DNA of 31,697 bases from a virus, in the IMG/VR virus record IMGVR_UViG_3300025872_000196, positions 1 to 31,697 of that record. The stretch is one strand, 5' to 3'. Below the pieces are notes generated by a model. It had not been told where the DNA came from and ran no database searches. It worked only from the letters and a program-made list of their open reading frames with translations. Shown one piece after another: positions 7,905 through 26,731 of this stretch (positions are counted from its first letter, which is position 1; every line of letters begins with the position of its first letter). The translations under genes were made by a program, and so were the position numbers.

Positions 7905-8405
7905 ATGAGTATCTCCGCGGTAGTGAAGAACTTTCGGGACGGGTCCCTGGTCGTCTCCGACGCCACCACGCCCACCCCCATCGCGCTCACGGTGCAGTAC
8001 GAGGCCGGCGACTTCAGCATCACCGGCCAGAACGAGGGGAACGTCGAGGTCACCACGTACCTTGACCGCGGCGAGCTGGGCAGCCTCCGCAAGACCAACC
8101 GGACCTTCCCGACGGGCAGCTTCACGGCGCACTTCACGGACCTCTCCGACGCGACCGACAAGACGCTGTTCAACATGGCGACCTGGACGGGAGCGTTCTC
8201 GACGGCTGTGTCCAGCATCACGGGCAGCGACGTCAAGACCTACAAGACGCTGGTCTGGACCTGTGAAGGCACAAATTTCGGGGACCCCGCCGACCATGTC
8301 CTAACCCTCGGTGACGTGCGCATCGATTCCGTGGACATCGCGGAAGGCGACCCCAACACCTACACGATCAACTTCACGGTGTACGGCGCCATCACGGCGA
8401 CGTGA
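7905..8405 (+). CDS. major tail (tube) protein
   Basis: This 166-residue protein is almost wholly beta, rich in threonine, serine and glycine, with LTVQYEAGDFSITG near residue 28, a central helix-forming DATDKTLFNMATWTG and a terminal strand pair ending in YTINFTVYGAI. Length and position, just before the tail chaperones and tape measure, fit the tube protein that stacks in hexameric rings. AAGGGG lies about 9 bases upstream of ATG. A strong stem-loop follows the stop, as expected for an abundant structural gene with a transcript-level step after it. Confidence 0.8.
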   Translation: MSISAVVKNFRDGSLVVSDATTPTPIALTVQYEAGDFSITGQNEGNVEVTTYLDRGELGSLRKTNRTFPTGSFTAHFTDLSDATDKTLFNMATWTGAFSTAVSSITGSDVKTYKTLVWTCEGTNFGDPADHVLTLGDVRIDSVDIAEGDPNTYTINFTVYGAITAT

Positions 8406-8429
8406 ACCGTCGCGGAACGTGCAACTAAT

Positions 8430-21482: not shown

Positions 21483-21832
21483 TGGCCGTCACCCTCGCGC
21501 CTACGCACCTACCGCACGTACAGATCGTCGTTACCGGCGCATCGGGTACAGTTACGGAGGTCATCCTCCCCACGACGCGTCATCTCGCGATGAACCTGCA
21601 CAACCGCGACAACGCCTCGAAGAACGCGATGGTCTCCTTTGACCAGACGCTGGTCGATGGAGGCGCGGCGCCCGCCTCGGGCGGGTGGAGCATCGACAAC
21701 TATCTGAACTACAACGTCAACGGTAACGGCGCGAATGGGATGCCGAGCGTGACGAAGTTCTTCGTCTTCTCGCTTTCGCATAACGACGTTACCATCGAGG
21801 TTCTCCTGACGACAAGCAAGCCCGCCAACTAG
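21482..21832 (+). CDS. small hypothetical protein, probable virion or accessory protein
   Basis: This 116-residue protein is beta-rich (HVQIVVTGASGTVTEVILPT then asparagine- and glycine-rich turns SIDNYLNYNVNGNGANGM) and ends in IEVLLTTSKPAN. It could be a decoration or fibre-type protein displaced behind the lysis genes. Its stop codon overlaps the stop codon of the convergent sliding clamp gene within the 4 bases CTAG, leaving no space for a terminator between the two operons. Confidence 0.6.
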   Translation: MAVTLAPTHLPHVQIVVTGASGTVTEVILPTTRHLAMNLHNRDNASKNAMVSFDQTLVDGGAAPASGGWSIDNYLNYNVNGNGANGMPSVTKFFVFSLSHNDVTIEVLLTTSKPAN

Positions 21833-22935
21833 TCCAGGCGTACCGGCATCACCACGTAGAACGCCGACGCGTCTCCTCGCGGCTCGAGAATGAGCGGCGC
21901 AATAGCACCGCCGCTCTTCATCACGACGTCCCCTTCGGGACAGGCCGCGAGAGCATCGCCGATGAATGCGGCATTGAGCCCGAGGGAGAGCGGCGTATCG
22001 GCCTCGCACGGGACCTCGTCTCGCGCCGACATCACGTCAGCCTGAGTGGCGCTTAGCACCAGACCATCGCTACCGAACGAGAAACGCACCGCCTTCGCGT
22101 TGTCTCGGGCTGCGAGCTTCACGCGCTTGAGCGCGTTCCCGACGGCGTCGCGGTCAACGATGAACCGATGCTTGTGCGTAGCGGGGAGGACTTCCTTGTA
22201 CGACGGAAAGTCGGCTTCTAGGAGGCGCACGTAGAGGCTCGCCACGGCGCCCCAGTGGATGTGTACCACCTTGTCGCCGTACTTCATCTGCACGACGTCC
22301 TCGACGTCCCCGAGGAGGCGCAGGAGCTCCGCGGCGCCACGACGCGGGAACAGCGAGCGCCTCGGGAGGTCGCCCTGGTGCGTCGCCGATACCTCCACGC
22401 GTGCGAGACGGGACCCGTCCGTGGTGACCATGCCGAGCGCGCCCTGAACCAGCTCGAGGTGCACGCCGCCGAGCATGTACCGGCTGTCGTCGTCAGCCAT
22501 CGCGTGCGACACGGCGCGTAGCCCGCGGCGCAGGTCTGCCGCAGACACGGTGATGGTACACGCAGAGGCATCGACCTGCGCCGTCGGCGGGAACTCTTCG
22601 GTCGGGAGCGTGGGCAGCTTGAACGTGGAGCGCCCCGCAGCCACCTCGAGCATCGTCTCCCGCAGAGTCATGGTGACGGAGCCTGCGGGGAGCACGGACG
22701 CCACGTCCCTTAGGCGCGAGGCATCCACGCAGACGCGGAGCTGGTCGCTCACCACGTCGACCGGGTACAGGCCCACGAAGGTGCAGACCGTGTCGCGTGC
22801 GGTCACGAGAAGCTGACCCGCTCCGTTGACGTGGAGGAGGGCGGCTGCGCCGATGGGCGCGCCCGACTTGTCGGCGATGCTGGCGGCACGGTTCGCCGCC
22901 TGGGCGAGGACCGCCCTGTCAATGATGATGCGCAC
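21829..22935 (-). CDS. dnaN: DNA polymerase III sliding clamp (beta subunit)
   Basis: This 368-residue protein is the full length of a bacterial clamp, the ring that tethers polymerases and repair factors to DNA. GTG at 22935 was chosen: a GGAG site lies 7 bases upstream, the product starts RIIIDRAVLAQ as clamps do, and its G is shared with the TAG of the gene before. The three similar domains can be followed; a central SRYMLGGVHLEL, then TTDGSRLARVEV and VDRDAVGNALKRVKL are clamp signatures. It ends YVVMPVRLD, close to the usual M-P-M-R-L end. It lies last in the minus-strand recombination operon. No DNA polymerase gene is present here, so it must serve a host polymerase or another partner. 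Confidence 0.9.
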   Translation of the reverse strand: MRIIIDRAVLAQAANRAASIADKSGAPIGAAALLHVNGAGQLLVTARDTVCTFVGLYPVDVVSDQLRVCVDASRLRDVASVLPAGSVTMTLRETMLEVAAGRSTFKLPTLPTEEFPPTAQVDASACTITVSAADLRRGLRAVSHAMADDDSRYMLGGVHLELVQGALGMVTTDGSRLARVEVSATHQGDLPRRSLFPRRGAAELLRLLGDVEDVVQMKYGDKVVHIHWGAVASLYVRLLEADFPSYKEVLPATHKHRFIVDRDAVGNALKRVKLAARDNAKAVRFSFGSDGLVLSATQADVMSARDEVPCEADTPLSLGLNAAFIGDALAACPEGDVVMKSGGAIAPLILEPRGDASAFYVVMPVRLD

Positions 22936-23246
22936 TAGCGAGCTCCTGCCTGCCGGATGCGGCAGTCCCAAAGGTGTTCGGAGGTGGGGGCGAGACAGGC
23001 GGGACACTGGTCCGTGTCTCCGATGTACAGCGAGGCAGGCTCGGCCATGACCTCGGCAAGGGTGGCGAGCTGGGCGCGGTCGTGCAGGAGAGCGCGCTCC
23101 TGCTCCTCGGCGAAGGCTTCGACCTCGTCAAGCTGCACCATGCAGACCTTGACCGCGTTGATGTGAGCGATGCGCCGCTCCATCGTGTACTTGTGGAGCA
23201 CGGCCTCCAGGCGCTGCCGCATCATGTGCGACGAGATCAGCGCCAC
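22935..23246 (-). CDS. small hypothetical protein with C-terminal cysteine motif
   Basis: This 103-residue protein is set to start at GTG 23246, with GAGG 6 bases upstream, overlapping the Gp157-like gene by 10 bases. The first 70 residues are helical (RQRLEAVLHKYTMERRIAHI then EEQERALLHDRAQLATLAEV). The end holds C-P-A-C and a later cysteine (DQCPACLAPTSEHLWDC), which with a nearby histidine could bind zinc. It lies between a Gp157 protein and DnaN and is therefore probably part of recombination or replication. No family is recognised. Confidence 0.6.
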   Translation of the reverse strand: MALISSHMMRQRLEAVLHKYTMERRIAHINAVKVCMVQLDEVEAFAEEQERALLHDRAQLATLAEVMAEPASLYIGDTDQCPACLAPTSEHLWDCRIRQAGAR

Positions 23247-23740
23247 CGGACACCTCGCTTGCTCTCCAGACGGAAGCCGGCGGGGAGCTCGGCGCCGGCC
23301 TTCGCAGCCTTCAGCGCCGCAGCGCGGTCGGGCTCCGTCTTCACGCGCCGCCAGATCTCCGGCCATTCCGAGACGTCCTCGGGACCAGACACGGACTGCG
23401 TCTCGGCGAGCCACGCCGTGTAGCTGGATGTCTTCACCTTCGGCTCCTCGCCGAGCTCCTCGCGCGCGACCAGGAGGGCGGTCGCGTACACCTTGACCCG
23501 CTCCTCGGCGCTTTCCATTGCCTGCCGGCGGGCCTTCAGGCGGGCCTCCTCCTCCTTGAGGAGCGTGGCCTCGGAGTCGAGCCGGCGCGAGAGCGCGAGG
23601 CAGCTATGCAGCTTGTCCTCGGAGGACTCCAACCACGCGGCTAGGGCCAACTCGCACTCGGGCGTCAGCACGCCCTGTTCAGCCTCGATGCTCCCGAGGA
23701 TGCGCGAGGAGTCAACCAGAAGTTCGTAGGTACTAGGCAC
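23237..23740 (-). CDS. Gp157-family protein
   Basis: This 167-residue protein reads as the Siphovirus Gp157 family: an N-terminal helical part (LVDSSRILGSIEAEQGVLTP), a central charged coiled coil (EATLLKEEEARLKARRQAME) and a strand-rich end with SSYTAWLAETQSVSG. In streptococcal phages, a relative is linked to phage resistance and replication. Here it is sited with an ERF protein and a clamp, suggesting a recombination partner. GTG 23740 has GAGG 6 bases upstream. The family call is by pattern. Confidence 0.7.
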   Translation of the reverse strand: MPSTYELLVDSSRILGSIEAEQGVLTPECELALAAWLESSEDKLHSCLALSRRLDSEATLLKEEEARLKARRQAMESAEERVKVYATALLVAREELGEEPKVKTSSYTAWLAETQSVSGPEDVSEWPEIWRRVKTEPDRAAALKAAKAGAELPAGFRLESKRGVRWR

Positions 23741-23748
23741 AGGTCACC

Positions 23749-24462
23749 TCAGAAGGGAAAGCCGCGGTCGTCTTCCGCGGGAGGAGGGGCATCGAGTAGG
23801 GGCTCACGCGTCGAGGGGACAGGGCCTGCGGCCTTCTCGGTATGCTTCCAGATGACGCCCTGGCAGGCCTTGTCCCGGCATTTGAAATCGGGAGCCTTCG
23901 GATTCATCTCGCCTGCGGCCTTCTTCGGACGGTTGTCCCACATCTTCCCGGAGCAGGTCGGGCAGACGGGGTCGATACCGGGAGGCGTCGAGGAGGGCGC
24001 GGCCTGCGGACGCGGAGCTGGTGCTTGGTGAGGCGCGGCCTGTGGACGAGGCATTGGGGCGGGCGTGCCGGCGGCGTGGCCATCGTCGTCGTCGCCGGGA
24101 GCTACGCCGACCGCCGCTGCCAGCGCGTACCGGCGCAGGTAGGTCACCACGGAGCCCGCCGCCTGGGCGCTGCCGTCCTTCGGCATGGCTGCGGCGACCG
24201 AGATGATGTGCTGCCCGCTGGCGTGCATGAGCGCCGTGGTCACGGTCACGGTGCCATCCTCGAGGCGACCGGGGTGCTGTGAGACGCTCAGGCCGTTTGA
24301 CGCCAGGGCGACGCGGCACGCGTCCCAGACGCTGGCGAGGTCGGCGTAGTTGCTGCGGAACGCCGGGTTCTGGCGGTCCTTGACCGCCGGCTGGATCTGC
24401 GCCTGCGCCTTCGCGAGCGCGGTGGCGAGCTGGTCGAGCTCAGGAGACATGTGCTGAATCAT
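23749..24462 (-). CDS. ERF-family single-strand annealing protein with zinc motif and SSB-like tip
   Basis: This 237-residue protein should pair single strands during phage recombination. Residues 10-125 are the ERF core (AFRSNYADLASVWDACRVAL near 35-54, LMHASGQHIISVAAAMPKDG near 78, then GSVVTYLRRYALAAAVGV). A proline/alanine linker (132-165) follows, then a zinc-type set C167, C170, C195 and C200, and the acidic end AEDDRGFPF. Its last residues resemble the SSB C-terminal tip (D-D-x-I-P-F), which docks repair proteins. The start is ATG 24462 with GGAG 8 bases upstream, an ATGA overlap with the gene before. Confidence 0.85.
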   Translation of the reverse strand: MIQHMSPELDQLATALAKAQAQIQPAVKDRQNPAFRSNYADLASVWDACRVALASNGLSVSQHPGRLEDGTVTVTTALMHASGQHIISVAAAMPKDGSAQAAGSVVTYLRRYALAAAVGVAPGDDDDGHAAGTPAPMPRPQAAPHQAPAPRPQAAPSSTPPGIDPVCPTCSGKMWDNRPKKAAGEMNPKAPDFKCRDKACQGVIWKHTEKAAGPVPSTREPLLDAPPPAEDDRGFPF

Positions 24463-24704
24463 GCGGAGAACTCCGGTGCTAGTACGAGGATGCCCGAGGG
24501 CGTGACGTGCGTGATCGTCCCCTTGAGGGACGGAGAGGGTTCCCACTCCCACCCGAGCATCGTCTTCCCGCGAGGAGGCGCACCGAGCGTCACCACGGCG
24601 CGTCCTGCGTCGTAGTGCACGTGGGTGACGAGCTCCGCGTGGTGCTCGAGGAGGAACGTGAGGAGGTTCGTGAGGGCGAGGGCGTGGGTAGTCATGCCCA
24701 CCAT
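24459..24704 (-). CDS. small hypothetical protein, first gene of the minus-strand operon
   Basis: This 81-residue protein begins with a helix (ALALTNLLTFLLEHHAELVT) and then has strands (AVVTLGAPPRGKTMLGWEWE). Its start is uncertain: ATG 24704 lacks a Shine-Dalgarno site, and ATG 24695 has only GGTGG too close in front. It may be translated from a leaderless or very short-leader message starting in the 46-bp divergent gap. Its stop overlaps the ERF start by ATGA. No function is recognised. Confidence 0.6.
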   Translation of the reverse strand: MVGMTTHALALTNLLTFLLEHHAELVTHVHYDAGRAVVTLGAPPRGKTMLGWEWEPSPSLKGTITHVTPSGILVLAPEFSA

Positions 24705-24714
24705 GTACTAGGGT

Positions 24715-24731
24715 ATTGCGGTCCCCGCAAT
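24715..24731. promoter_or_regulatory. operator-like palindrome ATTGCGG-N3-CCGCAAT
   Basis: Two perfect 7-base arms with a TCC spacer lie between the divergent XRE regulator and recombination operons. The inner TTGCGG/CCGCAA matches the second site at 25412-25430 (TTGCAG/CTGCAA) with the same 3-base spacer. It is well placed to repress either transcript. Likely bound by the XRE protein, though this is inference. Confidence 0.7.
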
Positions 24732-24732
24732 C

Positions 24733-24744
24733 GCACTATAGTGC
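24733..24744. promoter_or_regulatory. perfect palindrome GCACTATAGTGC containing a -10-like TATAGT
   Basis: This 12-base perfect palindrome contains TATAGT (24737-24742), a near -10 box. A transcript from it would start about 24749, only about 2 bases before the XRE ATG at 24751, giving an essentially leaderless message. No Shine-Dalgarno site is seen there, which agrees. TTGCGG at 24716-24721 is the possible -35 with a short 15-base spacer. Confidence 0.5.
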
Positions 24745-24750
24745 AGTTCC

Positions 24751-24972
24751 ATGACCAGACTCGGAGAGTACATACAGGAGCGGCGCACCGACCTCGGCCT
24801 CACGCGGGCCGACCTCGCGCGCGAGCTCAAGGTCCACAAGGCGCAGATCCAACGGTGGGAGGAGGGCACGTGGTGCCCTCGCCCGACGACGCTTGTTGCC
24901 CTGGCGCGCGTGCTGGGGATGCCGCCGCACGAGCTCATGATGATGCAGGTCGGGGACGTGGAACCTCCATGA
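24751..24972 (+). CDS. XRE-family transcriptional regulator
   Basis: This 73-residue protein is a single helix-turn-helix unit of the HTH_3 (Cro/C1) type: GEYIQERRTDLGLTRADLAR then ELKVHKAQIQRWEEGTWCPR, with the turn near residues 20-40 and LVALARVLGM after it. It has no separate dimerisation domain, so it resembles Cro or small P22 C2-like proteins in size. No ribosome site is seen in front of its ATG, suggesting a leaderless transcript. It probably binds one of the palindromes just upstream and controls both divergent operons. Confidence 0.85.
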   Translation: MTRLGEYIQERRTDLGLTRADLARELKVHKAQIQRWEEGTWCPRPTTLVALARVLGMPPHELMMMQVGDVEPP

Positions 24973-25397
24973 CCGCCGACTACGTCATCGGCCTCGTGCC
25001 GCGCGGTGCCTCGCGTCCTCGAGCTGCACGAGGTGGAGGGCGTGTCTACATGCCTCCCGAACACCGCGCGTGGATGGATGCCGCCGTTACCATGCTGCGC
25101 GAGCAGCGGCGCGGTGAGCCCATCGCCGAGCCTGTCGAGCTCGAGGTCATGGCCTATTGGCCGTTGCCGAAGGCGAGGCCGGCGTGGTGCGACAAGGAAC
25201 GCTGGGCGCTGCGCGGACAGGTCGGGGGTATCGCCTACGCCACCAAGCCCGACCTCGACAACGTCGGGAAAATCGTCATGGACGCCCTGGTCGAAGCCGG
25301 CATCCTCGAGGATGACCGCTTCGTGGTCGAGTTGAACATGTCGAAGCGCGCCGTGCCCGAGACTGGCCGCATCGACGTATGGCTCACTCCCGTCTAG
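24969..25397 (+). CDS. rusA: RusA-family Holliday junction resolvase
   Basis: This 142-residue protein resolves four-way DNA junctions. The RusA core is visible as ATKPDLDNVGKIVMDALVEA (residues 91-110) followed by GILEDDRFVVEL, with acidic residues D95, D97, D105 and D115-D116 and K101 in the positions expected for metal binding and catalysis. It starts by ATGA overlap with the XRE gene, so both are made together. It complements the ERF, Gp157 and clamp genes on the other strand, giving a phage recombination and replication set. Confidence 0.88.
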   Translation: MTADYVIGLVPRGASRPRAARGGGRVYMPPEHRAWMDAAVTMLREQRRGEPIAEPVELEVMAYWPLPKARPAWCDKERWALRGQVGGIAYATKPDLDNVGKIVMDALVEAGILEDDRFVVELNMSKRAVPETGRIDVWLTPV

Positions 25398-25411
25398 AAA
25401 GTGCGTGCAAG

Positions 25412-25430
25412 GGTTGCAGGTTCTGCAACC
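25412..25430. promoter_or_regulatory. operator-like palindrome GGTTGCAG-N3-CTGCAACC
   Basis: Two perfect 8-base arms around GTT. A further half-site TGCAA at 25406-25410 forms a second, overlapping dyad (TGCAA-GGG-TTGCA), so three half-sites are arrayed. The core is TTGCAG-N3-CTGCAA, akin to the site at 24715-24731. It covers the -35 position of the promoter predicted at 25414-25442. Confidence 0.7.
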
Positions 25431-25442
25431 GCTTGGTATGGT
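25414..25442 (+). promoter_or_regulatory. predicted extended -10 promoter for the small-gene operon
   Basis: TTGCAG (25414-25419) and TATGGT (25437-25442) are separated by 17 bases, and TGG directly before TATGGT makes an extended -10. It precedes the run of small genes beginning at 25480. The overlap with the palindrome predicts repression by a protein bound there. Confidence 0.5.
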
Positions 25443-25479: not shown

Positions 25480-25608
25480 ATGAGCCTCTACGACATCGCC
25501 CGCGCCTGCTACTACGACCCCGGCTACGTGTGGGAGCACTACGGAAAGCCCACCGCGTTCGCGAGCTTCATGTTGGCGAGCGCCGCCTTCGTCGTGGCGG
25601 TCGTATGA
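25480..25608 (+). CDS. 42-residue small protein with hydrophobic C-terminus
   Basis: This small gene reads MSLYDIARACYYDPGYVWEH, then YGKPTAFASFMLASAAFVVA and VV. GGAG lies 6 bases upstream of ATG 25480; another in-frame ATG at 25468 has no site. The last 17 or so residues are hydrophobic and could sit in a membrane. Its stop is overlapped by the next ATG (ATGA), so it is the first gene of an early-type operon under the predicted repressor-controlled promoter. No function is recognised. Confidence 0.6.
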   Translation: MSLYDIARACYYDPGYVWEHYGKPTAFASFMLASAAFVVAVV

Positions 25609-26645: not shown

Positions 26646-26697
26646 CCGTGAGACGTGACCCTCGTCTCGGGTCTTCTTCAGGGGTCACGTCTCACGG
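26646..26697 (+). terminator. 16-bp perfect inverted repeat, strong stem-loop
   Basis: CCGTGAGACGTGACCC (26646-26661) and GGGTCACGTCTCACGG (26682-26697) are perfect complements around a 20-base loop. The RNA would form a very stable stem. It falls right after the last small-gene stop and before the methyltransferase module. No T run follows, so it is either a structural insulator, an attenuator or the edge of an acquired segment. Confidence 0.65.
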
Positions 26698-26714
26698 TCT
26701 CGCGCGGGGGAACG

Positions 26715-26731
26715 TGTAAGCGTTTCTTACA
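26715..26731. promoter_or_regulatory. short dyad TGTAAG-N5-CTTACA before the methyltransferase
   Basis: Six-base arms with a CGTTT spacer lie 36 bases upstream of the methyltransferase start, in an AT-richer leader. It may be an operator or part of a promoter for the methyltransferase-helicase pair. No convincing -35/-10 set was found. Confidence 0.4.

Follow-up and report, generated by a model that had tools for sequence, protein, structure and literature searches.

Putative operator sites at two promoter regions beside a small XRE regulator gene in an uncultivated phage group

Gene order and two palindromic sites in the window

The window analysed here is the whole of IMG/VR virus record IMGVR_UViG_3300025872_000196, 31,697 nt in length, and the whole record was searched. 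Two sets of genes diverge from a 46-bp gap that holds a palindrome (site 1), with xre to the right and the gene for a 78-81-aa protein to the left. A second palindrome (site 2) lies 698 bp away, starting ~17 nt past the rusA stop codon and ahead of an operon of small genes. The features of the region are as follows.

21829-23007, minus strand: DNA polymerase sliding clamp (dnaN-like), by family match
23237-23740, minus strand: Gp157/Gam-like protein, by family match
23749-24466, minus strand: erf, Erf-type single-stranded DNA annealing protein, by family match
24459-24704, minus strand: 78-81-aa protein with no family match, encoded by the gene that opens the left operon and keeps its position in relatives
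24702-24730, minus strand: candidate left promoter, TTGCGG (24730-24725), 17 nt, TACATG (24707-24702), with a weak -10
24715-24731, no strand: site 1, putative operator, ATTGCGG-TCC-CCGCAAT, core TTGCGG-N3-CCGCAA at 24716-24730
24733-24744, no strand: candidate palindromic -10, GCACTATAGTGC, assigned from the sequence and conserved spacing
24751-24972, plus strand: xre, 73-aa single-domain Cro/C1-type helix-turn-helix (HTH) protein (HTH_31, HTH_3), predicted regulator
24969-25397, plus strand: rusA, Holliday junction resolvase, the RusA match lying within the part of the open reading frame past 24969
25412-25430, no strand: site 2, putative operator, GGTTGCAG-GTT-CTGCAACC, core at 25414-25428
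25414-25442, plus strand: candidate promoter of the small-gene operon, TTGCAG, 17 nt, TATGGT
25480-25608, plus strand: first small gene, 42 aa, MSLYD..., with a start conserved in relatives

The xre stop codon and the rusA start codon overlap (ATGA). The left gene starts at 24704 or at 24695, the latter being the start kept in relatives, and its 81-aa product had no match in Pfam or PHROGs. The first small gene is preceded by a ribosome-site-like GGAG, and its start is probably the ATG at 25480, which relatives keep, and not 25468. The small-gene run downstream of site 2 is followed by genes for a DNA methyltransferase, a helicase, a primase and another helicase, and at its opposite end the record encodes terminase, head and tail proteins and an endolysin. 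Past the small-gene operon lies a long inverted repeat (26649-26698, GTGAGACGTGACCC ... GGGTCACGTCTCAC), which may be a terminator-like or other RNA hairpin; a similar one was seen in a related contig, IMGVR_UViG_3300043449_001623 (L003). A further palindrome, TGTAAG-N5-CTTACA (26715-26731), occurred once per record, with a variable spacer, in 6 of 15 records and is perhaps the site of another regulator.

As the first-pass annotation had reported, sites 1 and 2 stand at 24715-24731 and 25412-25430 and have equal spacing and a common core, TTGCRG-N3-CYGCAA, and site 1 falls in the divergent gap at the XRE gene. A search of the whole 31,697-base record with this 15-base pattern, which the first-pass annotation had named as a check on its reading that random matches throughout would refute, returned exactly two matches (24716-24730 and 25414-25428), and the reversed pattern, used as a control, returned none in the same record. 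The chance expectation for the exact pattern is ~0.01, a figure that overstates the case because the pattern was written from both sites. We counted 27 perfect 6-3-6 palindromes in the window, where dinucleotide shuffles lead one to expect 16, and 85% of the shuffles hold some pair of palindromes with similar arms; a similar pair by itself is therefore unremarkable. Our gene model, however, leaves 596 bases non-coding, and sites 1 and 2 are the only two of the 27 to fall entirely inside them (P ~0.05 for at least two); their arms share five of six bases, as do those of 10 of the 351 palindrome pairs. By our own arithmetic, placement and shared arm bases together have a probability of roughly 0.002, and within the window the pair is only moderately unlikely to have arisen by chance. 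Since the exact-pattern figure is inflated and palindrome pairs are common in shuffles, we relied on conservation in relatives, which is far stronger evidence than the window statistics.

Conservation of the sites in related contigs

The XRE protein of L003 is 96% identical to that of the window. Over 58 bases around site 1, the two sequences differ by four substitutions, two in the spacer, two beyond the 15-bp palindrome and none in the arms, and their xre genes differ at 25 of 213 nt, 21 of these at third positions. A search of viral contigs for the palindromic -10 together with TTGCG-N5-CGCAA matched 12 contigs. In all 12, the first base of the site and the xre start codon are exactly 35 nt apart, and a divergent gene for a 78-84-aa protein is present. 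Two of the contigs, L102 and L005, end inside xre, so that only the beginning of XRE is visible in them, and the others encode a 73-residue XRE. L005 has the same layout, with TTGCGA-N3-TCGCAA as its site and an XRE 43% identical to that of the window. A similar pattern had no match among 84,980 bacterial and archaeal species represented by one genome each; this was one of two scans of genome contigs, neither of which found a relative. The XRE matches among phage records were remote, at 42% identity or less. A looser form of the pattern was also tried on the viral contigs and rejected, the matches listed being mostly unrelated contigs.

To guard against circularity, the divergent protein alone was used as the query in a search independent of the operator. 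Fourteen contigs were recovered, and 13 of them have a perfect TTGCG-N5-CGCAA at site 1. The only exception is L155/L164, in which no clear 15-bp site is seen; of the relatives that carry the divergent gene, it is the most distant. GCACTATAGTGC is present in 12 of the 14 and has one base changed in a 13th; in L168 (a contig of L145), the perfect site 1 stands beside a -10 with one substitution. The 12 distinct gap sequences all have the same ten outer bases (TTGCG/CGCAA), and their central five average ~1 bit of 2. What is observed directly is the sequence of each site, the order of the genes and the fact that both sites are conserved, as is the XRE gene next to them.

Nine sequences, counting the window, extend to the site-2 region. 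Each has a homologue of site 2 just past rusA and ahead of the small-gene operon, a TTGC site that precedes a gene starting MS(L/F)YD, with a hexamer starting TA located 17 nt past TTGCNN. The arms are 8 bp long and perfectly palindromic in the window and match at 7 of 8 positions in L003, whose site 2 (GGTTGCAGGTTCYGCAACC / GGTTGCAGGTTCCGCAACC) stands amid a diverged intergenic region. In the other version, seen in 7 of the 9, which have the other XRE types, the right half is degenerate (TTGCG-N5-CRCAC), with 3-4 of the 5 outer positions symmetric. The left half is found everywhere and the right half is strong in one lineage only, which makes site 2 the less certain of the two sites.

Six relatives (L139, L140, L142, L097, L112 and L168, the last judged from its larger site spacing) carry a variable extra gene between xre and rusA, encoding a small hydrophobic protein, a DNA methyltransferase-like protein or another open reading frame, as if this junction were an insertion spot.

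We also observed a third copy of the motif, TTGCGCGACGTGCAA or a close variant, in G002 (8144), G006 (16366), G007 (8030) and G009 (8392). Exact matches occur in G010 (21724), G013 (17233) and G014 (8145) as well, and the distances from site 1 are similar. In the four inspected records, G002, G006, G007 and G009, the third copy lies just past the stop codon of a gene matching window positions 7905-8405, and a terminator-like hairpin follows it. The window (8410-8424) and L003 carry TCGCGGAACGTGCAA at this position, and no third copy was seen in G011 or G005.

The XRE protein and the candidate promoters that overlap the sites

XRE matched the HTH_31 (6.4e-14) and HTH_3 (1.8e-13) profiles, both above the curated cut-offs, and its predicted structure (mean pLDDT 89.6) consists of five helices at residues 3-14, 19-26, 30-38, 45-55 and 59-68. 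By family and predicted fold, it is a member of the XRE/Cro-C1 HTH regulators, in agreement with its earlier description as a 73-residue single-domain protein. Its nearest solved natural relatives are the P22 C2 and 434-type repressor domains. XRE resembles the N-terminal domains of these repressors (PDB 2r1j, 1adr, 1sq8) in sequence and in the predicted five-helix HTH fold; unlike the full repressors, it lacks a C-terminal oligomerisation or cleavage domain.

The sequence of helix 3 corresponds to the sixth arm base of site 1. HKAQ(I/V)QRW, present in the window and L003, is paired with G at this position, and HPSQLTRW, AASQVTRW or AGSQVTRW with A or C, a correspondence that comprises essentially two lineages and fits a recognition helix and an operator changing together. 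Two more distant contigs, L006 and L007, encode a diverged XRE and have their own divergent gap with TTGACG-N3-CGTCAC and TTGACG-N3-CGACAC sites, which keep the 6-3-6 geometry of the window and have a different core. In L006 (1387-1434) and L007 (5661-5708), the two TTGACG sites stand at the apparent -35 positions of putative divergent promoters that overlap each other.

We examined the sequences around both sites for promoter elements. TATAGT is readable on both strands within GCACTATAGTGC (24737-24742 on the plus strand and 24740-24735 on the minus strand), as in bidirectional promoters with symmetric -10 elements (PMC12825309, PMC10268837); unlike those promoters, the window -10 has a conserved putative regulator site alongside and stands near ATG codons. 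The plus-strand TATAGT ends 8 nt ahead of the xre ATG, leaving no room for a leader with a ribosome site, and since this spacing is constant in relatives, it suggests that xre mRNA is leaderless or nearly so. On the left, 6 nt separate TACATG from the ATG at 24695, a layout comparable in relatives that leaves little space for a normal leader, and the small gene has its ribosome-site-like sequence. TTGCRG is 17 nt from the -10-like hexamer at the left and small-gene promoters and 15 nt from it at xre.

The first-pass annotation had placed site 2 over the -35 of an extended -10 promoter. The hexamers, the TG one base upstream of TATGGT and the 17-nt spacing in all nine sequences are consistent with this; a scan for consensus sigma-70 promoters, on the other hand, found none at either site, and the candidate promoters were placed from weak hexamers and conserved spacing.

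A probable Cro-like brake on early operons and its alternatives

The first-pass annotation had also proposed that XRE binds both sites and joins its own expression, the recombination genes and the small-gene operon in one switch. The joined circuit is supported by the joint occurrence of XRE, site 1 and the divergent gene in relatives and by the recurrence of site 2 in 9 of 9 sequences; the two-state switch is not supported. In the window and 8 of 9 relatives, an HTH_3 search gave one match each and no second HTH_3 protein, and no tyrosine integrase (PF00589) or resolvase (PF00239) was found in 10 records, which may be fragments. A lambda-type CI/Cro switch of two repressors was considered and, as these searches gave neither an antagonistic HTH_3 repressor nor an integrase, is not supported. 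With one HTH_3 protein and no integrase in the window and most relatives, negative feedback on early genes by one Cro-like protein fits better than a two-state switch.

In the reading that we consider probable, XRE would be a Cro-like early-gene repressor of a double-stranded DNA phage, whose dimer binds TTGCRG-N3-CYGCAA at both sites and covers the -35 regions, acting as a brake on three early operons. Two putative divergent promoters, both apparently leaderless, meet at site 1; XRE would lie between their -35 regions and over them, shutting down xre-rusA and the left operon (the 78-aa gene, erf, gp157 and the sliding clamp). At site 2, it would cover the -35 of the rightward small-gene operon, which leads towards the replication genes. 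Because both sites cover their -35 regions, the build-up of XRE would limit its own synthesis and lower all early operons together. Here we infer binding by XRE, dimerisation, the promoter positions and repression rather than activation; that one operator core is read by the adjacent XRE, linking xre, the recombination genes and the small-gene operon, is well supported by the conservation.

For repression, a usual position of the operator is over both -35 regions of a divergent pair. This placement of site 1 argues against XRE being an activator, CII-like or class II, of one or more weak promoters, as does the fact that its nearest solved domains are repressors. The poor -35 hexamers and the position of the sites at -35 are compatible with activation, and one family match is named a CII-like regulator (phrog_4836), although this match may reflect the shared HTH only; we regard activation as improbable.

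The symmetry of site 1 could instead be that of two back-to-back -35 boxes and the TTGC of site 2 another, with RNA polymerase as the sole reader, in keeping with TTGCRG lying 17 or 15 nt from -10-like hexamers and with the degenerate right half of site 2 in 7 of 9 sequences. Yet site 2 is palindromic in the window and L003, where no suitably spaced leftward -10 was seen, TTGCGG makes a poor -35 hexamer, the 15-nt spacing at xre is unfavourable, and the ten outer bases invariant in all 12 gap sequences exceed what a -35 box needs, which makes this reading quite improbable. That a host regulator reads the sites instead of XRE is most improbable: phages do borrow regulators from their hosts, but among viral contigs the site module was found only beside this XRE gene, and a similar pattern is absent from the collection of one genome per species.

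A repressive XRE would be a circuit of a kind already familiar from other phages. The Cro protein of PY54 is a known lytic repressor that binds one 16-bp palindrome, and the cro and cI mRNAs of PY54 are leaderless (PMC4488713). Like this telomere phage, the window has a small HTH regulator, a palindrome in the gap at the repressor gene and, as it appears, a leaderless regulator mRNA. In PY54 there is a single operator, and Cro is partnered by a prophage repressor; the search of the window gave no HTH_3 protein besides XRE, and a second putative operator lies ~700 bp away at another operon. A palindrome in the regulator's own promoter gap, as for a Cro-type autorepressor, is found at the conserved site 1, and XRE probably works like Cro. 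The C proteins of restriction-modification systems (Kpn2I, PMC6237814) are likewise small autoregulatory DNA-binding proteins at their own promoter; the putative targets of XRE are phage early operons rather than a restriction system.

A broader reading, which we consider rather unlikely, is that these phages, which apparently do not integrate, have the 73-residue XRE as their sole regulator of the repressor type, coordinating every early operon and perhaps, through the third site, a tail-gene boundary, with operator and recognition helix changing together from one phage lineage to another. If true, there would be immunity-like specificity groups without lysogeny.

For an uncultivated phage group, these results provide a concrete early-gene circuit as read from sequence, with a regulator, two putative operators and the operons that they would join. 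In the 46-bp gap, a putative repressor site occurs together with a symmetric -10, next to genes that appear to be leaderless, and the relatives with diverged helix 3 and operators make up a natural data set on how an HTH protein and its site may change together.
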